Part shown: positions 2,905 through 36,914 of the stretch, piece after piece | How the letters are laid out: each line of letters starts with the position of its first letter | How positions within the stretch are numbered: the first letter of the stretch is position 1 | Virus record (IMG/VR): IMGVR_UViG_3300021432_000024 | Coordinates: 1-36,914 of that record | Length of the DNA: 36,914 nucleotides | DNA from: a virus | Reading direction: 5' to 3' (one strand) | Program-made: the position numbers and the translations under genes | The notes under the pieces: model-generated | Seen by the model: only the letters and a program-made list of their open reading frames with translations | Database searches by the model: none | What the model was told of the DNA's origin: nothing

Positions 2905-3082
2905 GATAAAAATATCGACCCATCTTTTGAATTTGATGCCACATAAAAACGTTTATTTTCCACATTCCATAAACATAAAAAATTAGAAAAGCTGCCGCTA
3001 AACATCGAATCTCTCCTAAAAGAGGGGCTACTATTAAAAGTGCTAAAAGAAATAAAATTATAATTAAAAATTTATTTTTCAT
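2894..3082 (-). CDS. small two-helix membrane protein
   Basis: 62 residues with two hydrophobic segments: residues 4-21 (FLIIILFLLALLIVAPLL) and about 28-45. A basic, aromatic C-terminus follows. Its ATG overlaps the stop of the variable-domain mini-gene as TAATG, so it is translated with it from the promoter at 3286-3313. Function unknown; partnership with the variable-domain protein is only positional. Confidence 0.66.
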   Translation of the reverse strand: MKNKFLIIILFLLALLIVAPLLGEIRCLAAAFLIFYVYGMWKINVFMWHQIQKMGRYFYHEK

Positions 3083-3279
3083 TATAATTTTTCCTGTTTA
3101 GAAATTCTTATTAGACGGAAACCAACATTGACGTAGCGGAGCTCCGGATAGAAGTAGCCGCGATTGGCAGAACGCAGAAACTGCGCAAAGTTATACCAAG
3201 AGCCGCCCCGTAGCACACGGAAGGAGCCAGCTTTAGGACCTTCGGGATCTTTCATGATTTCTAAAGATTTATTCTTCAT
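3082..3279 (-). CDS. detached FGE/C-type-lectin variable domain (VR1)
   Basis: 65 residues that correspond only to the C-terminal part of the FGE-sulfatase (SUMF1/PvdO-like) fold: GPKAGSFRVLRGGSW (14-28), then RSANR, PELR and VGFRLIR. The N-terminal two thirds of the fold are absent. In DGR target proteins this part carries the diversified ligand-binding positions. Here the residues after RGGSW are Y, N, F, Q, F, N, G, Y, F, Y, L, Y, V and N at the columns that vary among the three copies. Its 3' constant segment differs from the other copies at several third positions (CGT CTA ATA AGA), so it may no longer be a substrate. The ATG at 3279 lies at or within a few bases of the predicted transcription start, so translation may be leaderless; an internal ATG at 3255 is an alternative. 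Confidence 0.78.
   Translation of the reverse strand: MKNKSLEIMKDPEGPKAGSFRVLRGGSWYNFAQFLRSANRGYFYPELRYVNVGFRLIRISKQEKL
3106..3228 (-). repeat. DGR-like variable repeat, copy 1
   Basis: A 123-bp segment alignable codon by codon with 7407-7529 and 8733-8852. GC-rich in an AT-rich genome. Variable codons are TAT, AAC, TTT, TTT, AAT, GGC, TAC, TTC, TAT, CTC, TAC, GTC and AAT, all ending in C or T. This copy has TTC where the others have TAC (GSF versus GSY), and CAG where they have CGG. Each is a change explicable by substitution at an adenine of an ancestral template. Confidence 0.82.
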
Positions 3280-3285
3280 ACTTAA

Positions 3286-3313
3286 ATGATATCAAAATAT
3301 CAAAATATGTCAA
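3286..3313 (-). promoter_or_regulatory. sigma70-type promoter driving the VR1 operon
   Basis: On the minus strand TTGACA (3308-3313), a 16-base spacer and TATCAT (3286-3291): a perfect -35 and a one-mismatch -10. The spacer contains a tandem ATTTTGAT. The predicted start of transcription falls at about 3279, the first base of the VR1 ORF. Confidence 0.75.
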
Positions 3314-3355
3314 GTGGCTTAAAAAGCTTTAGTTTACTGTATAGTACTGTTTAAA

Positions 3356-3439
3356 TGGGATAGTAAGGGATCGAACCTTATTGACCTTGCGGCTTTAGAT
3401 TTACAGTCTAATGACAACGCCATGTTGTCCACCTATCCC
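3356..3439 (-). tRNA. tRNA-Tyr (GTA)
   Basis: An 84-nt class II tRNA. The acceptor stem GGGATAG pairs perfectly with CTATCCC. The anticodon stem TTAGA/TCTAA encloses CTGTAAA, giving anticodon GTA. The variable arm is a short hairpin (GCC-GCAA-GGT), as expected for bacterial tRNA-Tyr, and the T arm is TAAGG-TTCGATC-CCTTA. The D arm is atypical, with an extended stem and a small loop containing GG. CCA is not encoded. The 5' acceptor strand overlaps the stop codon of the upstream small ORF, so the tRNA must be cut out of an mRNA-like precursor. Confidence 0.86.
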
Positions 3440-3612
3440 TCAATGATATAATTTTGGAAGTTAATATCAGCCCATCGTTTAACAGCCTCTGGCCAGGTGT
3501 GTTTACTTAAATTTATTTTAAGATCTTTTTTATTTCTTTTAGATCGTTTGATGGTTTTTTTAGAAAAATCACTGGGTTTATAAGTTTTCCAATCTGTAAG
3601 CCATTCTGCCAT
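3433..3612 (-). CDS. small basic hypothetical protein
   Basis: A 59-residue ORF on the minus strand starting MAEWLTDWKTYKPSDF and ending INFQNYIIEG. The middle is strongly basic (KKTIKRSKRNKKDLK), suggesting nucleic-acid binding. The upstream GATGGAAAA is only a weak ribosome binding site. Its TAG stop lies inside the acceptor stem of tRNA-Tyr (overlap of seven bases). It fills the space between the replication gene and the tRNA in the same direction. No family recognised. Confidence 0.55.
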   Translation of the reverse strand: MAEWLTDWKTYKPSDFSKKTIKRSKRNKKDLKINLSKHTWPEAVKRWADINFQNYIIEG

Positions 3613-3631
3613 TTTTTTCCATCTTTTTTTT

Positions 3632-3674
3632 AAGCCGCGAGTGAGCCCGAAGGGTGAGCTCTAGCGAGCGGCTT
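3632..3674. repeat. GC-rich imperfect inverted repeat
   Basis: AAGCCGC (3632-3638) pairs with GCGGCTT (3668-3674). Further partial pairing around CCC-GAA-GGG lies inside. It abuts the stop codon of the replication gene. On the minus strand it is followed by an A tract rather than a T tract, so it is not a standard intrinsic terminator for that gene. It may instead stabilise the mRNA 3' end. Confidence 0.55.
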
Positions 3675-4111
3675 TATTTGATCTTTTTTCCTATTTTTTT
3701 CATTTTTTGGAGTAAAAAATCTCGTTCATTTTCAGTGAGTGAAGTAATCAAATCGACTCGGGAAAAATCTTTTCTCCTCTTATCTAAATCTAGGCGCGGT
3801 GTCACCGCACTCTCACCGCACTCTATTTTTTCAATCCAGCCCATAGACTCAAATAAAGCCATATCTGGGAGGCGCTTCATTCCTAAGCGAGCACGCAGAA
3901 TGCGGCAGTTTGTCGTCAGCTTGTTGCCAGTAGTGCAGCAGTAGTGCAGCAGCAAGAGCCAAGCAAGTCTGTTTCCTTCACTTAAATCCATAAATTCTGG
4001 GTCATTTAAAATGTTAGGATAGGCCTTAAACCAAATCATTGTTTTCTTATGATCTCGATGTTGATATTTTTCCCAATTTTTGATTCTAAAATATTCAATT
4101 TTTTTAGCCAT
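3674..4111 (-). CDS. replisome-organiser-like protein
   Basis: 145 residues. The N-terminus (EYFRIKNWEKYQHRD at 6-20, then WFKAYPNILNDPEFMDLSEG) resembles the N-terminal winged-helix domain of phage replisome organisers and DnaD/DnaT-like loaders: an opening strand, then a helix around D-P-E-F. The C-terminal third is short and basic (KKMKKIGKKIK). Such proteins bind origin DNA and help load a host helicase. The gene lies directly beside three 9-bp iterons (4176-4202), a natural candidate binding site. A ribosome binding site GGAGG five bases before ATG fixes the start. No helicase or polymerase is encoded, so host enzymes would be needed. Confidence 0.6.
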   Translation of the reverse strand: MAKKIEYFRIKNWEKYQHRDHKKTMIWFKAYPNILNDPEFMDLSEGNRLAWLLLLHYCCTTGNKLTTNCRILRARLGMKRLPDMALFESMGWIEKIECGESAVTPRLDLDKRRKDFSRVDLITSLTENERDFLLQKMKKIGKKIK

Positions 4112-4175
4112 TAAACCTCCAAAAATTTAAATTAAAATTTATCTTGCGATTTTAAGGTTTTTGAATGACCCTGAG

Positions 4176-4202
4176 ATCGCATAAATCGCTTAAATCGCGT
4201 AA
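4176..4202. repeat. three tandem 9-bp iterons
   Basis: ATCGCATAA, ATCGCTTAA and ATCGCGTAA follow one another without gaps (consensus ATCGCNTAA, exact 9-bp period). An inverted half-match, GCGATTTTAA, lies nearby at 4147-4156. The array sits in the divergent spacer between the replisome-organiser-like gene and RusA. It could be an origin or an operator; the sequence does not decide which. Confidence 0.72.
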
Positions 4203-4227
4203 TCAAAAAGGATCATGAAATGATTCT

Positions 4228-4272
4228 GCGGGCCTAGTCGAGAAAAAGCTTGAGGGTCCGCTTTCTTTTTTC
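4228..4272 (+). terminator. intrinsic terminator in the RusA leader
   Basis: GCGGGCC (4228-4234) pairs with GGTCCGC (4255-4261) with one G-T pair. An inner TCGAG/CTTGA stem closes on an AAAAAG loop. The T-rich tract TTTCTTTTTT (4262-4271) follows at once. It ends only about a dozen bases before the RusA start, so it would stop or attenuate transcription entering RusA from the iteron region. Confidence 0.72.
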
Positions 4273-4284
4273 TATGGTTTTTTC

Positions 4285-4695
4285 TTGATTGAATTTACAG
4301 GGTTTCCAATGCCTCCTACGGATAATAATCTGACGCGCTCAGATAAAAGAAATCATTGGCATAGCACTGCAGAATATAGAGCTTTTAAACATGAAGTAAT
4401 GATTTGGGAGCTTTCTAATAGAGCTGCTATTCAATCGATCAAAGAAGAATTGAGGGCCCCTCTTAACGTTCATATGGACCTCTATTTTGAGAGATCTAAA
4501 ATTTTATGTAAAAATGGTCGAACCAAGAAAATGGATGGCCCTAATCGAATCAAGGCTCTTCATGATGCTATTTCTAGAATCATTGGAATTGATGACTCAG
4601 AATTTTGGCAATGGAGTGGAGAAAAACATATTTCTCCCAATTCTCTTAATTATGTAACAATTAGAATATCTAATTTAGAAGAACATCATTATTAA
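4285..4695 (+). CDS. rusA: RusA-family Holliday junction resolvase
   Basis: 136 residues. The family signature is clear: the acidic/basic motif MDGPNRIKALHDAI (83-96, with D84, N87, K90 and D94) followed by GIDDSEFW (101-108, with D103 and D104). RusA dimers cut four-way junctions and resolve recombination and replication intermediates before packaging. Length is normal for the family. The start is a TTG at 4285, giving the usual MIEF opening; a five-codon leader frame (ATG at 4274) ends in TGA overlapping this TTG. A later ATG at 4309 is less likely. It stands alone on the plus strand and its stop abuts the stop of the convergent gene at 4696. With the RecT-like gene nearby it forms a recombination module. 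Confidence 0.88.
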   Translation: MIEFTGFPMPPTDNNLTRSDKRNHWHSTAEYRAFKHEVMIWELSNRAAIQSIKEELRAPLNVHMDLYFERSKILCKNGRTKKMDGPNRIKALHDAISRIIGIDDSEFWQWSGEKHISPNSLNYVTIRISNLEEHHY

Positions 4696-4857
4696 TTATT
4701 CAAAATCACTGGGAGGATCCATCCATTTAGGCAGTTTTCTTCCAAATCTTTTTTCAAAAAGTTTTCTTTTTTGATTCATTTTCCATTCATGAAGACACAT
4801 TTCTGAGATAATTAAAAAGAAACTTATTCCTAAAATAATAAGAATTAAAAGAATCAT
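4696..4857 (-). CDS. 53-residue single-pass membrane protein
   Basis: A short ORF beginning MILLILIILGISFFLIISEM (one hydrophobic helix, residues 1-18) and ending with a basic, polar tail (KRFGRKLPKWMDPPSDFE). Its ATG overlaps the stop of the RecT-like gene as ATGA and its stop abuts the RusA stop, so the space is completely filled. Function unknown. Confidence 0.62.
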   Translation of the reverse strand: MILLILIILGISFFLIISEMCLHEWKMNQKRKLFEKRFGRKLPKWMDPPSDFE

Positions 4858-5537
4858 TCTATTTCTTTAATCTCATTTTCATCATAAATAGATCCCAAAA
4901 AACAATCCGAAAATTCAGCTCTACACACTTCTGTAATGCATCGAGAACGAAGCATCGCTCTTGGATATTTTGTCCAATTATCCCCTCGAAGTCCTGCTCT
5001 TACAGCATCTTCTATTGTAAAACGATAGGGAGTAATAGCTAAAGATTTATCTCTTGCGACCTCAATTTCACATTCTTTCTCATTCGATGTTTTAATATGA
5101 AAAAGAGCATTCGGAAGCTTTTTATGAACAAAGGCCTTCATCAATGTAGCTGACATGGAAGGTTTACCCTTAACGACATAAACCTCCTTTAAAGCGATGA
5201 TCGGCTCTATCCCCAAGGCTTTGCCATAGCTTGCAATTGTAAAGGCCTGGGCAGGCGTTTTAATCATTTCTGGAAGGAGTCCTGATTCAAGAAATATCTT
5301 ACATTGCTTCCAAAGTGTGTTGAGTTGATCAGACTCAGTAGAAATTGGGGGAAAAGAATTAGTTGTATGAATAGCCTGAATATTAGCTCCAGGCAATTTA
5401 GGTGATTCTGGCGGAAGAATATGTCCTACCGTTGATGTAGGCATTACTGGAGTCTCTATCATATCAAAAGTGCTTTCTTTGATATTTAATCGTTCTTCAA
5501 CTTCTTTAGGAGCTTTAAATTCATTTTTGAGAGTCAT
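4854..5537 (-). CDS. RecT-like single-strand annealing protein
   Basis: 227 residues. The N-terminal 65 are low-complexity. The core from residue 75 reads WKQCKIFLESGLLPEMIKTP, then ASYGKALGIEPIIALKEVYV, GKPSMSATLMKAF, a variable strand region, RFTIEDAVRAGL, and WTKYPRAMLRSRCITEVCRA. This order (LP-x-x-I-x-T, G-x-x-LGI-P, GKP-x-x-S, then W-x-K-x-P-x-x-ML-x-R) is that of phage RecT/Bet-type recombinases. These anneal complementary strands during recombination-dependent replication. No exonuclease partner is encoded beside it, which is unusual for a two-component system. It follows a small hypothetical gene (17-base overlap) behind the divergent promoter at 5777-5804. Confidence 0.72.
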   Translation of the reverse strand: MTLKNEFKAPKEVEERLNIKESTFDMIETPVMPTSTVGHILPPESPKLPGANIQAIHTTNSFPPISTESDQLNTLWKQCKIFLESGLLPEMIKTPAQAFTIASYGKALGIEPIIALKEVYVVKGKPSMSATLMKAFVHKKLPNALFHIKTSNEKECEIEVARDKSLAITPYRFTIEDAVRAGLRGDNWTKYPRAMLRSRCITEVCRAEFSDCFLGSIYDENEIKEIE

Positions 5538-5769
5538 TTTCTAATTCCTTTCGTGCTTTTGTAATTCCATCCCTAAAATCGCAGAGATGGCGACAAAGTT
5601 GATTCCATTTTCTTGTTTGATACTTAAGACTTGATTCAATTTCTGCATACGCTTCTATGGCTATCGAAATTCGATCTAAAAAGAAATCAAGCTCTTTTTC
5701 TGTTGTTGATTTTCTGGAAACCCCCACCATTAAATCTTGATAGATTTTAAAAAAATCAGAAAAAGTCAT
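5521..5769 (-). CDS. hypothetical helical protein
   Basis: 82 residues, mainly helical with an acidic/aromatic middle (KELDFFLDRISIAIEAYAEI) and a basic C-terminus. First gene of the leftward transcript from the divergent promoter; it overlaps the RecT-like gene by 17 bases. Possibly a recombinase partner by position. Not a recognised family. Confidence 0.63.
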   Translation of the reverse strand: MTFSDFFKIYQDLMVGVSRKSTTEKELDFFLDRISIAIEAYAEIESSLKYQTRKWNQLCRHLCDFRDGITKARKELENDSQK

Positions 5770-5776
5770 GAAAATG

Positions 5777-5819
5777 CTTATAGAGGGCTATTGACAAAAG
5801 TCAAATATTAAAATATCAA
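5777..5819. promoter_or_regulatory. overlapping divergent promoters built on a palindrome
   Basis: Plus strand: TTGACA (5791-5796), a 17-base spacer and TATCAA (5814-5819). Minus strand: TTGACT (5799-5804 reversed), a 16-base spacer and TATAAG (5777-5782 reversed). The two -35 boxes are the arms of TTGAC-AAAA-GTCAA (5791-5804). RNA polymerase cannot occupy both at once, which makes this a natural switch between the recombination genes and the plus-strand accessory genes. Confidence 0.73.
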
Positions 5820-5843
5820 GCTTGCAAATAAGGAGATCATGAA

Positions 5844-6257
5844 ATGGAAGTAAAGGAATACGATGGATATAAATTGTTAATTAAATGTATATTTTGGACT
5901 TCTACTATCTTAACTTTATTTATTGCTTCTTGTTGTTATATTGTTCCCCAATATGGAGTTTATGAGCAGCGGCTTAAAGGACAAGCAAGACTTCAAGAGG
6001 CAGAATCTTCAAGACAAATAGCAGTTGTGGAAGCAGAAGCAAAAAAGATCGCAGCTACTCAATTAGCTTTAGCTGAAATTGAAAGGGCAAAAGGTGTAGC
6101 TCAAGCCAATACTATTATTGCTGATTCTTTAAAAAATAATGAGTCTTATCTTCGATATCTTTGGATTCAAGGATTAGAAAATGGAAAAAGTGAAGTAATT
6201 TATATACCAACTGAAGCCGGGCTTCCAATTCTAGAAGCTCAGCGATTAAAAAAATAA
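5844..6257 (+). CDS. SPFH/prohibitin-like membrane-anchored protein
   Basis: 137 residues. A single membrane segment (about 12-32, IKCIFWTSTILTLFIASCCY) follows a short N-terminus. A long Ala/Glu/Lys/Gln helix (about 43-95: EAESSRQIAVVEAEAKKIAA, then AEIERAKGVAQANTIIADSL) is characteristic of the C-terminal coiled coil of SPFH/HflC-type proteins, and YLRYLWIQGLENG matches the segment after it. The globular SPFH domain itself is missing. Short phage proteins of this form probably sit on the inner membrane; their role is not established. The ribosome binding site AAGGAG (5830-5835) sets the ATG at 5844. Confidence 0.72.
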   Translation: MEVKEYDGYKLLIKCIFWTSTILTLFIASCCYIVPQYGVYEQRLKGQARLQEAESSRQIAVVEAEAKKIAATQLALAEIERAKGVAQANTIIADSLKNNESYLRYLWIQGLENGKSEVIYIPTEAGLPILEAQRLKK

Positions 6258-6267
6258 AGGAATTCTT

Positions 6268-6807
6268 ATGGAAAAAATGACAATTACAGAAGGTCTTGCT
6301 GAAATTAAATTGATAGAAAAAAAGATGGAAAAAAAGAAAACGATGATTGTTTCAAATCTTACTCGATTTAAACAAGTAAAAGATCCTTTTGAAAAGGAGG
6401 GTGGATCTCAAACAACTATTCGGCAAGAAATGCAAAGTGTTTCTGATCTTCAAAAACGATTAGAAAATATTCGATCCGCAATTGCAAAAGCCAATCTTTT
6501 TGAGTCTGTAACAGTCGGAGCCCAAACAAAATCAATTTATTCATGGCTTATTTGGAAGCGAGAAATTTTAGAAAATGATGAAAAGTTTAAGCAGAGCATT
6601 GTCAATCAAATTAAATCTCAAATTGATCGTCAATCTGTTAATCCTCAAGTTTGGAAAACAGAAGCTGGTGGGGTAGAACTTTGTGAACTTATTTTAAATG
6701 CTGATTATGGAGAACAATTAAAAGCACTTGAAAATTTAGGAGATATTAAAGAAAAATTAGATGGTCAGCTTTCTTTAAAAAATGCGACTGTTGTTATAGA
6801 ATTTTAA
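6268..6807 (+). CDS. coiled-coil hypothetical protein
   Basis: 179 residues. The N-terminal half is helical and charged (ITEGLAEIKLIEKKMEKKKT at 6-25), then LTRFKQVKDPFEKEGGSQT, then a second helix with AIAKANLFESVTV. The C-terminal third is mixed, ending in a beta strand (ATVVIEF). An AAAGGAATTC element lies just before the ATG. Co-transcribed with the SPFH-like gene (10-base gap). No family recognised with confidence. Confidence 0.66.
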   Translation: MEKMTITEGLAEIKLIEKKMEKKKTMIVSNLTRFKQVKDPFEKEGGSQTTIRQEMQSVSDLQKRLENIRSAIAKANLFESVTVGAQTKSIYSWLIWKREILENDEKFKQSIVNQIKSQIDRQSVNPQVWKTEAGGVELCELILNADYGEQLKALENLGDIKEKLDGQLSLKNATVVIEF

Positions 6808-6854
6808 AAAAGAATTTCTTTCAGAGGTGAAGTGAATAAATAAAGTGAAAAAAA

Positions 6855-6929
6855 TTTCTTGTAGCTCATTTGGTTAGAGCAATTGATTTAAAGATCAATG
6901 GGTAGGAGGTTCAAGTCCTCTCAAGAGCA
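6855..6929 (+). tRNA. degenerate tRNA-like element with 8-nt anticodon loop
   Basis: 75 nt with a good T arm (GGAGG-TTCAAGT-CCTCT) and a D arm containing GTAGCTC and GGTTAGAGC. The acceptor stem has only five Watson-Crick pairs plus one G-T (TTTCTTG against CAAGAGC). The anticodon stem ATTGA/TCAAT encloses eight bases, TTTAAAGA, instead of seven; alternatively six pairs enclose six bases. The isotype cannot be assigned. It is either a decayed tRNA, a tRNA-derived remnant, or an unusual four-base decoder. No CCA encoded. Confidence 0.6.
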
Positions 6930-7010
6930 ATAAAGCTTGCAAAGGCTTACCAAAATAAAAGCTCAAAACTCAAATCCAAAAGCTTAAAGATATTTAAAAT
7001 GAAATCTTAA

Positions 7011-7127
7011 ATGGAAAAAATAAAAGTTAAGTTGCAATCTAGCGAAAATCTGGTGATCTCAGCAATGAGATTAAAGAGCTGCACTTTAGCTCTGATTCAG
7101 GATGCTAGCTACTTTTTGGAAGAATAA
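7011..7127 (+). CDS. small ORF, 38 residues
   Basis: Begins MEKIKVKLQSSENLVISAMR and ends DASYFLEE. It stops three bases before the ATG of the next gene (7131), consistent with coupling. No clear ribosome binding site and no recognised family. Coding status is uncertain but the spacing favours it. Confidence 0.42.
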   Translation: MEKIKVKLQSSENLVISAMRLKSCTLALIQDASYFLEE

Positions 7128-7130
7128 TTT

Positions 7131-7349
7131 ATGAAGATGCCAAAAGGATTTAATAGATTTAAAGAATGGGCCTATAATTTTGATTCAATGAGGCGATTTG
7201 AAGGAGATATTCCAAATACTTTATCAAATGCTGCAAATCTTATGCAAGAAATGGCAGAGAGTTTAGAAGATTGTTTACAATCTCAAATAGATAAAGTCGA
7301 TTGGATTAAAGCAAATAAAATATTAAAAAAATTTCAAGAATGGAAATAA
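7131..7349 (+). CDS. hypothetical helical protein
   Basis: 72 residues, helical, with aromatic N-terminus (GFNRFKEWAYNFDSMRRF) and an acidic middle (LMQEMAESLEDC). Unknown function. Its stop lies three bases upstream of the TTG start of the VR2 mini-gene, so the two are probably one transcript. Confidence 0.6.
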   Translation: MKMPKGFNRFKEWAYNFDSMRRFEGDIPNTLSNAANLMQEMAESLEDCLQSQIDKVDWIKANKILKKFQEWK

Positions 7350-7352
7350 TTT

Positions 7353-7565
7353 TTGAAAAAAATTCTTATAGTTAAAGACCCTACAGGTCCTACAGGTCCT
7401 AAAGCTGGCTCCTACCGTGTGTTACGGGGCGGCTCTTGGTACATCAGTGCGCGGCTTCTGCGTTCTGCCTTTCGCAACTACGGCAATCCGGAGTACCGCG
7501 GCGGCAATGTTGGTTTTCGCCTCGTGAGGACTTCTAAGGAAAAAAATGAAAAAGAAGAAAATTAA
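7353..7565 (+). CDS. detached FGE/C-type-lectin variable domain (VR2)
   Basis: 70 residues starting at a TTG. It holds only the C-terminal segment of an FGE-like fold: GPKAGSYRVLRGGSW, RSAFR, NPEYR and VGFRLVR, then a charged tail (TSKEKNEKEEN). A 9-bp in-frame duplication (CCTACAGGT twice, from 7380) gives the doubled Thr-Gly-Pro. Residues at the variable columns are Y, I, S, R, L, F, N, Y, G, N, Y, G, G and N. The GC content of 7400-7530 is far above its surroundings. No FGE N-terminal domain precedes it. The charged tail is the stretch overlapping the next gene (ATG at 7546). Confidence 0.78.
   Translation: MKKILIVKDPTGPTGPKAGSYRVLRGGSWYISARLLRSAFRNYGNPEYRGGNVGFRLVRTSKEKNEKEEN
7407..7530 (+). 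repeat. DGR-like variable repeat, copy 2
   Basis: Codons at the variable columns after TGG are TAC, ATC, AGT, CTT, TTT, AAC, TAC, GGC, AAT, TAC, GGC, GGC and AAT. All end in C or T, and the third base matches copy 3 in every shared column. The last 24 bases (7507-7530, containing GGTTTTCGCCTCGTGAGGA) are identical to 8830-8853 of copy 3. That is the position where a DGR initiation-of-mutagenic-homology segment would lie. Confidence 0.84.
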
Positions 7566-7743
7566 ATGGGCTAAAACTATACATCATATTTTTCATTATA
7601 ATTCTGAATGTCCCCCATTTGATGTAAATAATAATTATTCACCCTTTAAATGGAGTGGAAATTATAGAAGAATTAATTGTAAAAAATGTATTGAGGCTTA
7701 TAAAAAAACAGGAATTTATAAAGGAGATCCATGTCTTCCATAA
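7546..7743 (+). CDS. small basic hypothetical protein
   Basis: 65 residues, with a Lys-rich start (MKKKKIKWAKTIHHIFHYN), one CKKC pair near residue 46 and two more single cysteines, so a small metal site is possible. AAGGA lies five bases before the ATG. It overlaps the VR2 gene at the 5' end and the FGE-like gene at the 3' end (13 bases), consistent with a compact operon. Not recognised. Confidence 0.6.
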   Translation: MKKKKIKWAKTIHHIFHYNSECPPFDVNNNYSPFKWSGNYRRINCKKCIEAYKKTGIYKGDPCLP

Positions 7744-8276
7744 ATACGATTGATGCTAAAGAAGATTTATTAAAACTTTTTAAATTCGTTTCTATTCAAC
7801 CAGGTAAATTTATAATGGGATCGCCTAAAGATGAAGAAGGAAGATATAGTGATGAAGATCAAAAAGAAGTTGAAATCACAAAATCATTTGAAATGCTTGA
7901 AACACCTGTTACTCAGCTTCAATATTATTCTATAATGGATATAAATCCTTCTTGTTATGAAGGCTTACAAAAACCCGTTCATAATGTTTCATGGAATGAT
8001 GCCATTGAATTTTGTAAAAAACTTAATGGATTAGATCCAGATCATTATTATAGACTTCCAACAGAAGCAGAATGGGAATATTGCTGTCGGGCTGGAACTA
8101 CTACTTCTTATTCATTTGGAAATGATATAAAAAATTTAGATCAATTTGCTCATTTTAATTCAAATTATGGTCCTATAAATGTAAAATTTTTACTTCCAAA
8201 TCCATGGGGACTTTATGATATGCATGGAAATATTTGGGAATGGGTTTTGGATTATTATAGTGCAAGCAGAGAATAA
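7731..8276 (+). CDS. FGE-like (SUMF1/PvdO family) N-terminal part, truncated by HNH gene
   Basis: 181 residues. Clear formylglycine-generating-enzyme fold landmarks in order: [14 protein letters not shown] (19-32), [10 protein letters not shown] (57-66), [18 protein letters not shown] (81-98), [17 protein letters not shown] (107-123) and [20 protein letters not shown] (157-176). It ends at SASRE, just where the family normally runs through a short linker into GSYRVxRGGSW and the C-terminal RSAxR...GFRLV. That missing part is found in the same frame at 8697, beyond the HNH gene. The catalytic cysteine pair of true FGE lies in that later region and is not present in any of the three copies, so a binding (lectin-like) role is more likely than sulfatase activation. 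The ribosome binding site AAAGGAG fixes the start. Confidence 0.83.
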
Positions 8277-8286
8277 ATATAAAAGA

Positions 8287-8700
8287 ATGTCCGAGATTGT
8301 GAAACATAAGAGCCCGGCATACAAATCCTGGTATTTTATGAACCGAAGATGTTCTTCGATCAAAGCTAAAGACTATAAATTCTATGGAAGTCGTGGAATA
8401 TCAGTTTGTCAGCGATGGACCATATTTGATAATTTTTATTCTGATATGAAGGACTCATATTTAAAAGGAATGACGATTGAGAGAATCGATTCAAATAAGA
8501 ATTATTCACCAGAAAATTGCAAATGGGCCACGATGTCTGATCAATTTAATAATCGAAGAAATTCGATAAGAATTAAACATCCTAAAACAGGCGAAATAAA
8601 AGGCCTCGCTCAGTGGGCTAAGCTGTTTGGAATCTCAAGATGGACTGCTTTTTATCGGTTCAAAAATATATCAAAAAAGTTTGAAGAGATTTTTAAATGA
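8287..8700 (+). CDS. HNH/AP2-type homing-endonuclease-like protein
   Basis: 137 residues. Motifs: [11 protein letters not shown] (12-22), [12 protein letters not shown] (33-44), [18 protein letters not shown] (65-82) and QFNNRRNS (86-93). This is the arrangement of phage HNH proteins of the AP2/NUMOD type. A C-terminal helix-turn-helix-like segment follows ([18 protein letters not shown]). Such genes spread by cutting cognate sites. It sits exactly between the two halves of the FGE-like gene; its stop overlaps the next ATG as ATGA. The open frame continues upstream to 8215, but the ATG at 8287 gives the usual start. There is no room for an intron core, so it looks like a free-standing insertion. 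Confidence 0.8.
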
Positions 8701-9134
8701 AAACAGTTAAAAACCCTACAGGTCCTAAGAATGGCTCCTACCGTGTGGTACGGGGCGGCTCTTGGGCCGGCCATGCGCGGACTCTGCGTTCTGCTGCTCG
8801 CGCCGGCAATCCGGGGTACCGCGCCGCCCATGTTGGTTTTCGCCTCGTGAGGATTCCTATGTCTATTCACTCTTTTACACTTGATCCCTCTTCTATCGAG
8901 GCTCGCGAAGCGATAGCCGAGATTAATGTACTTGATCAATGGGATAAAGATGCTGAAGCTTTTTTATTAAATAATAATCTTTATACAGATAAAGAAGATC
9001 AAAAAAGAATTCGTGCTTTAATAAATATTATAAGAAAAAAAGATGATAAAATTAGATATGCTTTAGGCCCTACAAGAGATGTTAAAACGCCACATTTACA
9101 AGAAGCTCTTGCATTAACAAAAGAATTAAAATGA
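8697..9134 (+). CDS. FGE-like variable domain (VR3) fused to a hypothetical protein
   Basis: 145 residues. Residues 1-53 are the C-terminal part of an FGE-like domain ([35 protein letters not shown]). It is in the same frame as the N-terminal half ending at 8276 and is probably its severed C-terminus. From Met55 (8859) the frame continues as about 90 residues of unknown, mostly helical protein ([19 protein letters not shown] and onward). A GTGAGGA element at the end of the variable repeat lies five bases before that ATG and could act as its own ribosome binding site, so both a fusion and a separate downstream protein are possible. Variable-column residues are A, G, H, R, T, A, A, G, N, Y, A, A and H, with one column deleted. 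Confidence 0.76.
8733..8853 (+). repeat. DGR-like variable repeat, copy 3
   Basis: Codons at the variable columns are GCC, GGC, CAT, ACT, GCT, GCC, GGC, AAT, TAC, GCC, GCC and CAT, again all NNY. One codon is missing relative to the other copies. GAG of copies 1 and 2 is GGG here, an A-to-G-type change. The two bases before each conserved Y are strongly G/C, giving Ala and Gly, so this variant is more GC-rich than copies 1 and 2. Confidence 0.83.
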
Positions 9135-35398: not shown

Positions 35399-36817
35399 TT
35401 AGAAAAAGAGCCCTGAAGGTCCTTCATTTGATTCATTTTGAGATTTCATTAATTCAGCTTCAAACATTTCATCTTCTTGTTCTTTAAACCATTCCACAGA
35501 TCCCTGTTTATAAAGAAGTTGTGGAGCTTGATAAGAAAAAGCAGGAGATTCTTTAAAAGCATAAAGAACAGCATCCACAATATCTGAATGAAATGAATCT
35601 TTGATTTTGATCTTATCAGGAGTTGTTTTATCTCGATCTATTTCAATCAAATAAGAATCTTGAGCAAATCTAGAATAAGACTTCGCTTTAAATCTTCCTG
35701 ATCGTAAGGCATCATTAAGGAATGCATAATTCTCCATTTTACGAGTTTTATCTGCTGGGGATACGGGAATATGATGGCGCCGGCGGATTTCTTCTGCGAT
35801 CTTTTTGCCAAGACCACCTTCATCTATCACCATTTTTGAAATGGGATAGCGAGCTGCAAGAGATTCAATGGATTGCACTAACTCAGTTATCCCTTGTCTC
35901 GGAACTACAATCTCCTCAATTAGAAAAGTGGAAGCATCCGATTCGCTCCATGCGAGCACTGCAAGAGCATCTGCATCGACAAACCCCAAATCAATCCCCA
36001 TAATATAATTCCAATGCTTTTGTGGAAGGTTTTCATAATGATTTATCTGGGGATTATATTTCAAAAGAAGTGATTCAGTATCTAGCACCCATTTTCCAAA
36101 CCATTCTCTTTGAATAGAAGGATCATCAACTGAAACTCCCCGTCTTCCAAGTTCTCGATCAAGAAGTTGCCGATGAGACATGCCCGATTTAATGGGAATG
36201 TGAGGATTATCAAAGAATGTCCAAGAATGTTTAGACCAGGCTTTAGAGTCTGTAGAACACTTATGAAAATAGCCTATAGGGACAGCCCCAGGAGTGCCAA
36301 TAAGACAAAGAGTCCCAGCATAATCCATAAGAGCTGGTGTAATGATATCGTCAATGAGTTGCTCGATATAAGATCGAAAGGACTGACATTCATCCAAGTA
36401 ACAGAGCTTAATTGCAAGACCTCTAAATTTTTCAATCTCGGCTTGATCATTGGCACCACTAACGTAAATGATCGAGTTATTTTCAAATTTAATTGAAAGT
36501 TCAGTAAGATCTGATTTAGCAACAATGCGATTAGAAATGAGAATTTCTTGCAATGTAGGCCAAATAATCTTTTTTGCATTATTACGTGAAATGGTAATGT
36601 AGAGAGAGCTTGTGTCCGGATTTTGAAGAGCTGTTGCGACAAGATGCGCTGCACATGCAAATGTCTTTCCAGACCGCCTGGAGCAGACTGCAGTTTTAAA
36701 TGGGGATAAGTCATTTACAAACTCAAGTTGCTTATCAAATAGAAAGTTTTTAAGTTTAAAAGATTGATATCGAAAAACTCTTTCTTCGAGAATAATTTTT
36801 GCTTCATCCCGTCTCAT
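35399..36817 (-). CDS. terL: terminase large subunit
   Basis: 472 residues. ATPase: Walker A CSRRSGKT (45-52), Walker B LCYLDE (138-143) with the catalytic Glu, and coupling motif LIGTPG (172-177). Nuclease: GIDLG (D276), MVIDEGG (D332) and HSDIVDAVLYA (D412, D415), the RNase H-like acidic cluster. This enzyme cuts concatemers and pumps DNA into the prohead. Length is normal. Its ATG (36817; also base 30 on the circle) lies 14 bases inside the small terminase gene. It starts the late block. Confidence 0.93.
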   Translation of the reverse strand: MRRDEAKIILEERVFRYQSFKLKNFLFDKQLEFVNDLSPFKTAVCSRRSGKTFACAAHLVATALQNPDTSSLYITISRNNAKKIIWPTLQEILISNRIVAKSDLTELSIKFENNSIIYVSGANDQAEIEKFRGLAIKLCYLDECQSFRSYIEQLIDDIITPALMDYAGTLCLIGTPGAVPIGYFHKCSTDSKAWSKHSWTFFDNPHIPIKSGMSHRQLLDRELGRRGVSVDDPSIQREWFGKWVLDTESLLLKYNPQINHYENLPQKHWNYIMGIDLGFVDADALAVLAWSESDASTFLIEEIVVPRQGITELVQSIESLAARYPISKMVIDEGGLGKKIAEEIRRRHHIPVSPADKTRKMENYAFLNDALRSGRFKAKSYSRFAQDSYLIEIDRDKTTPDKIKIKDSFHSDIVDAVLYAFKESPAFSYQAPQLLYKQGSVEWFKEQEDEMFEAELMKSQNESNEGPSGLFF

Positions 36818-36914
36818 TTTTCAAAGTTTCAATAGCTTCTGGAACAAGAGCTAATAATTCTTCATCTGGAAGATCTCTAAGCGGTCTTTCAATAGATCCC
36901 GAGTGCTCTAGCGC
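36788..36914. repeat. terminal direct repeat, right copy (circular overlap)
   Basis: Identical to 1-127. It contains the first ten codons of the large terminase and part of the small terminase gene (bases 36804-36914 on the minus strand), which is complete only at the left end of the window. Confidence 0.93.

Follow-up and report, generated by a model that had tools for sequence, protein, structure and literature searches.

Scaffold and variable genes of the phage

The window analysed here is the whole of IMG/VR record IMGVR_UViG_3300021432_000024 (36,914 nucleotides), a complete phage genome of 36787 bp closed by a 127-bp terminal repeat. In separate genes it encodes the parts of a formylglycine-generating enzyme (FGE)/C-type-lectin fold: one scaffold chain without a variable region (VR), and three chains, VR1, VR2 and VR3, each with a VR of the kind written by diversity-generating retroelements (DGRs). 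The features are as follows.

1-127 and 36788-36914, no strand: direct terminal repeat, exact over 127 bp
3082-3279, minus strand: VR1 mini-gene, 65 codons (65 aa), ATG start; PF03781 204-255/255, E 9e-8; included in the three-copy alignment
7353-7565, plus strand: VR2 mini-gene, 70 codons (70 aa), TTG start; PF03781 209-255/255, E 5e-8; adenine-type variation
7731-8276, plus strand: FGE/C-type-lectin scaffold chain without a VR; PF03781 4-194, E 1e-33
8289-8700, plus strand: HNH endonuclease gene between the scaffold and VR3; PHROG 3377, E 6e-40
8697-9134, plus strand: VR3 chain, 145 aa, comprising the VR and a tail; PF03781 204-255, E 2e-8
8733-8859, plus strand: DGR-type VR of VR3 (GGCTCC...GTGAGGA), with NNC/NNT variable codons
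7407-7536, plus strand, and 3228-3099, minus strand: equivalents of this region in VR2 and VR1

Profile searches placed the scaffold and the VR chains on complementary parts of PF03781, in agreement with the initial annotation, which had described VR1 and VR2 as C-terminal FGE pieces with their own start codons. That annotation had named only VR1 and VR2 as stand-alone pieces; VR3 is also detached, as it opens its own open reading frame (ORF) downstream of the HNH gene. None of the three VR copies (0/3) is fused to the scaffold, the ORF of which ends 10 residues past a WEW segment, and all three VR frames are open. The stop codon of VR1 and the start codon of the following gene overlap (TAATG), the TTG of VR2 is its sole in-frame start and directly follows the stop of the upstream gene, and the start of VR3 overlaps the HNH stop (ATGA) and is preceded by GAAGAG. 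The HNH gene interrupts a gene that is intact in the relatives L026 and L097, viral contigs in which the FGE gene is fused. A group I intron at this site was ruled out by sequence because only ~12 bases separate the scaffold stop from the HNH start. The first codons of VR1 (ATGAAGAATAAATCTTTA, 3262-3279) are similar to the beginning of the gene that follows it (ATGAAAAATAAATTTTTA, 3054-3091), a likeness that may be a trace of cassette arrival or may be due to chance.

The three VR copies align from ...GGTCCTAA to ...GTGAGGA with 70-82% DNA identity (E 1e-18 to 1e-38), a match that is, on these alignments, far beyond chance. The boundaries drawn in the initial annotation were thus retained, as was the observation that the flanks of the copies do not align with one another; the flank of VR3 is not unrelated to everything, as an intact FGE protein encoded in contig L097 has a similar C-terminal tail. 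Such copies within precise boundaries, together with nearby RecT-like and RusA genes, would suit a sequence reservoir in which silent VR cassettes recombine with an expressed copy, as had been suggested with the RecT-like protein promoting the exchange. Silent-cassette antigenic variation likewise involves several variable copies of one protein end, but the phage lacks a complete, expressed FGE gene into which a cassette could be placed, and the start codons, coupling and Shine-Dalgarno sites of related arrays (described below) indicate translation. We saw neither a recombinant VR copy nor other evidence of exchange between the copies, and nothing links the RecT-like protein to them; we regard a reservoir as improbable.

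Structure prediction was consistent with a fold that has been divided. The intact relative L026 was modelled by AlphaFold with a predicted local distance difference test (pLDDT) score of 88, and the PDB entry that it matched best was TvpA (2y3c; E 9e-22, template-modelling score 0.81). In this model, the WEW segment forms a strand (residues 172-179) just before the variable half. When the phage scaffold was modelled alone (AlphaFold 2), the WEW strand was lost and the C terminus was disordered, with pLDDT values of 57 and 33 at the scaffold end versus 95-98 in the corresponding part of L026, a prediction that fits a chain needing a partner. Formylglycine-generating enzymes use catalytic C-terminal cysteines; no cysteine was present in VR1, VR2 or VR3.

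Hypermutation signature and search for the writer

We compared the VR copies with the DGR template of viral contig L043, which is not cognate to the phage VRs; this contig carries a reverse transcriptase (RT) and a template that reads GGSWNNNPQNCRSANRNNNTPDNRNNN. Variable columns coincided with template codons that have A at position 1 or 2 (16 codons) in 15 of 17 cases (P=2e-7), and the variable codons were NNC/NNT where the L043 template has AAC/AAT. Differences between VR2 and VR3 at codon positions 1, 2 and 3 numbered 7, 9 and 1, respectively, and those within the variable region of a VR pair in contig L025 numbered 9, 9 and 0. The adenine-codon columns and the nearly fixed third positions thus identify, at the level of sequence pattern, the phage VRs as hypermutation-type (DGR) variable regions. 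The near identity of synonymous sites in VR2 and VR3 points to recent rewriting, and the two copies have an identical 3′ end (GTTGGTTTTCGCCTCGTGAGGA), a fixed end of the initiation-of-mutagenic-homing type that follows the variable codons. VR1 has drifted furthest: 3-4 of its third positions have changed and its 3′ end (TTCCGTCTAATAAGA) no longer has the conserved sequence, suggesting that it is the oldest copy. The VR cassettes have a GC content of 54-66% versus 36% for the genome, and the GC-rich backbone common to all three fits a single writing template. No strong hairpin such as that of BPP-1 was found behind the VRs.

No RVT_1 match to a DGR reverse transcriptase was detected in the complete genome (the same search finds the RT in L043 and L088), nor was a cognate template repeat found within it. 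Because the genome is complete and neither component was found, we infer that the writer lies outside the phage genome, most simply in the host. A writer that is not found in the phage would also suit VR chains that act on the host, inserting into or competing with its DGR-diversified lectin sensors as decoys that are matched through the host DGR. A role as phage sensors has been proposed for host DGR lectins (PMC10907252), and the scaffold and VR genes stand outside the structural module. Against such a role, the phage has its own scaffold, and a PADLOC search assigned no defence family to the scaffold or VR pieces, the sole hit being a weak match in a neighbouring gene (6268-6804, upstream of VR2; HEC-01B, E 0.001). 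We consider action on the host very unlikely.

Two further features adjoin the mini-genes. A tRNA-Tyr (gta) gene lies at 3356-3439 on the strand of VR1, ~80 bases upstream of it, and a tRNA-like gene, the anticodon of which was called as four bases (taaa), lies at 6855-6929, ~0.4 kb upstream of VR2.

Recurrence of the split layout in other viral contigs

To place the split layout among its relatives, a scaffold profile and a variable-part profile were run on fetched FGE-bearing viral loci. Scaffold-only and VR-only ORFs were found in seven contigs (this phage, L025, L041, L047, L055, L059 and L116), and the break site was constant in 7/7, the scaffold ending 3-38 residues past WEW (WQW in L041). 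On the scaffold tree, the split state needs 6 changes, at least 5 of which are forced by well-supported branches; the split therefore arose, or was undone, repeatedly. The stand-alone variable domains of the initial annotation are thus a recurrent arrangement, seen with the same break in six other viral contigs. Its proposal to look for the mini-ORFs in related phages was answered in part: 20 terminase relatives (47-63% identical) contained no VR match, and gain or loss at the VR1 and VR2 sites was therefore not readable. Against named phages, the terminase reached at most 31% identity among the matches listed.

Several of the split contigs carry arrays. In L047, the scaffold lacks a C-terminal VR of its own and is followed by six VR mini-genes, several of them behind GAGGAG sites. 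Upstream is a seventh VR copy that shares the reading frame of the scaffold; the DGR pattern is present in 6/7 copies, with 0-4 third-position changes among the six. L116 contains eleven VR mini-genes (44-79 aa), most of which are coupled by 1-4 nt overlaps. The mini-genes of L055 start with MSD, and two stand behind GAGGTGAT. Ribosome sites or start/stop coupling are clear in these three split contigs, and the VR-only ORFs of L041 and L059 hold two variable domains each. The adenine signature was not seen in L041, L059, L061, L068 or L116, in which third codon positions change about as often as the other two, and these arrays are therefore either old or diversified in another way. Judged by codon pattern, DGR writing is evident only for this phage, L025 and L047.

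L025 is a distant relative of the phage (portal proteins 49% identical), and among fused FGE genes that of L097 is nearest to its scaffold in the tree. The L025 mini-gene ends in the same C-terminal tail as this full-length protein and so probably arose by loss of the N terminus. VR chains may thus begin as truncated genes, and the arrays suggest that some phages then retained and multiplied them. The shared tail bears on the main rival explanation, in which a DGR-bearing ancestor with full-length FGE targets lost its RT and template, one target was broken by the HNH gene and the others were reduced by N-terminal deletions to VR fragments that now drift. Such decay of retired DGR targets would also account for the RT not being found and for the drifted 3′ end of VR1, and in Treponema denticola, truncated DGR targets (58-136 aa) have earlier been called 'suspicious' and set aside (PMC4891356). 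Decay sits poorly with three open VR frames, with the recent rewriting of VR2 and VR3 and with a split layout that recurs across the scaffold tree. It also sits poorly with L116, the eleven frames of which stay open at 63% mean DNA identity, an outcome to which we assign a rough probability of 1e-4 to 1e-15 in the absence of selection. The initial annotation had held that full-length genes with recent N-terminal loss in relatives would make the mini-genes simple decay products; the L025 mini-gene follows this course, but the translation-coupled arrays of L047 and L116 are unlike recent decay. Overall, decay seems unlikely to us, although it is a stronger competitor than a reservoir or action on the host.

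Other arrangements were observed in the fetched loci. L060 (9656-10699) and L062 (6668-7861) have 3-4 VR repeats in a single frame ahead of FGE scaffold sequence, and in L061 (8674-9300) and L068 (2414-3397), where the part fetched showed no scaffold, four and five VR-only ORFs stand in a row. On visual inspection, a GIY-YIG-like endonuclease ORF followed by an apparent DNA polymerase fragment lies just upstream of the split array in L116 (3190-3984 and 4254-4940), and an HNH-like endonuclease ORF lies shortly upstream of the fused FGE gene in L097 (4259-4720). Among the groups of named phages that were inspected, MW202622 was rejected as a further split case, having one fused FGE gene (MW202622.1, 32291-34638, on the plus strand; the annotated genes of the record there are on the opposite strand), as were Microcystis phages, the FGE genes of which are fused.

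A lectin proposed to assemble from separate chains

On the basis of these data, we propose, at roughly even odds (probability about 0.5), that the phage encodes a TvpA-like FGE-class lectin in pieces, with VR chains that complete the scaffold as interchangeable faces. The scaffold (7731-8276) would end where the variable half should start, and VR1, VR2 and VR3 would be separately translated C-terminal chains, each with a DGR-written variable region. These chains would dock in trans and complete the β-sheet of the scaffold, so that a single scaffold presents several exchangeable binding faces; the DGR would be located in the host or in another element and act, or have acted, on them in trans. 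Among the roles suggested in the initial annotation, binding of the VR peptides to the FGE N-terminal chain appears to fit best, given the recurrence of the split. That the phage expresses these genes, that the chains dock in trans, that the lectin binds a ligand and which element acts as the writer are inferences on our part.

Several observations weigh against the assembly of a lectin from separate chains. Among the best 80 scaffold loci, 77 have fused FGE genes only, so the split is rare, and that of L025 is explicable by one frameshift. VR1 lies 4.5 kb off on the opposite strand with no clear ribosome site found, and VR2 starts with TTG. The loss of order in the scaffold comes from a single-chain model. 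Furthermore, exact VR-pattern scans (a template matching the VRs would carry GGCGGCTCTTGGAAYAAYAAYGCGCAG) found no template or writer in the viral contigs, and a scan of GTDB genomes gave two chance matches only, outside FGE genes.

TvpA of T. denticola and other FGE-class DGR variable proteins (Mtd class) have the same fold as L026, of which TvpA (2y3c) is the top match, and likewise have a C-terminal variable region with AAC/AAT-derived codons. They are single chains, in contrast to the phage, in which different genes encode the scaffold and the variable part, one scaffold has several variable chains, and an RT and template were not found. Remote DGR targets in T. denticola, cyanobacteria and Thiohalocapsa PB-PSB1 similarly have variable regions that either lie at a distance from the RT and template or have none locally; those targets are bacterial, whereas the ones described here lie in a complete phage genome and lack a scaffold. 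In phage Aeh1, NrdA is split by mobE, likewise an HNH gene between halves of one fold with both halves open, and remains functional (PMC2988022). The present phage differs in having extra copies of one half elsewhere, and the break in the other split contigs showed no endonuclease gene.

More tentatively, these contigs could represent a class of split hypervariable lectins, reached several times independently, in which one constant scaffold pairs with several variable chains, diversified in this phage by a DGR outside it; we hold this broader view somewhat less firmly than the assembly proposed for the phage itself. Our literature search found no description of a system with scaffold-only and VR-only genes, most subscription papers and bioRxiv preprints being outside its coverage, and the DGR target proteins of solved structure each consist of one chain. 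Should the mini-genes prove to be working chains, phages would gain additional binding faces with no need to duplicate the scaffold, and a class of variable proteins of 44-80 residues would be overlooked in annotation. A complete genome with recently written VRs, in which no RT or template was found, suggests that phages may use a DGR that they do not carry.
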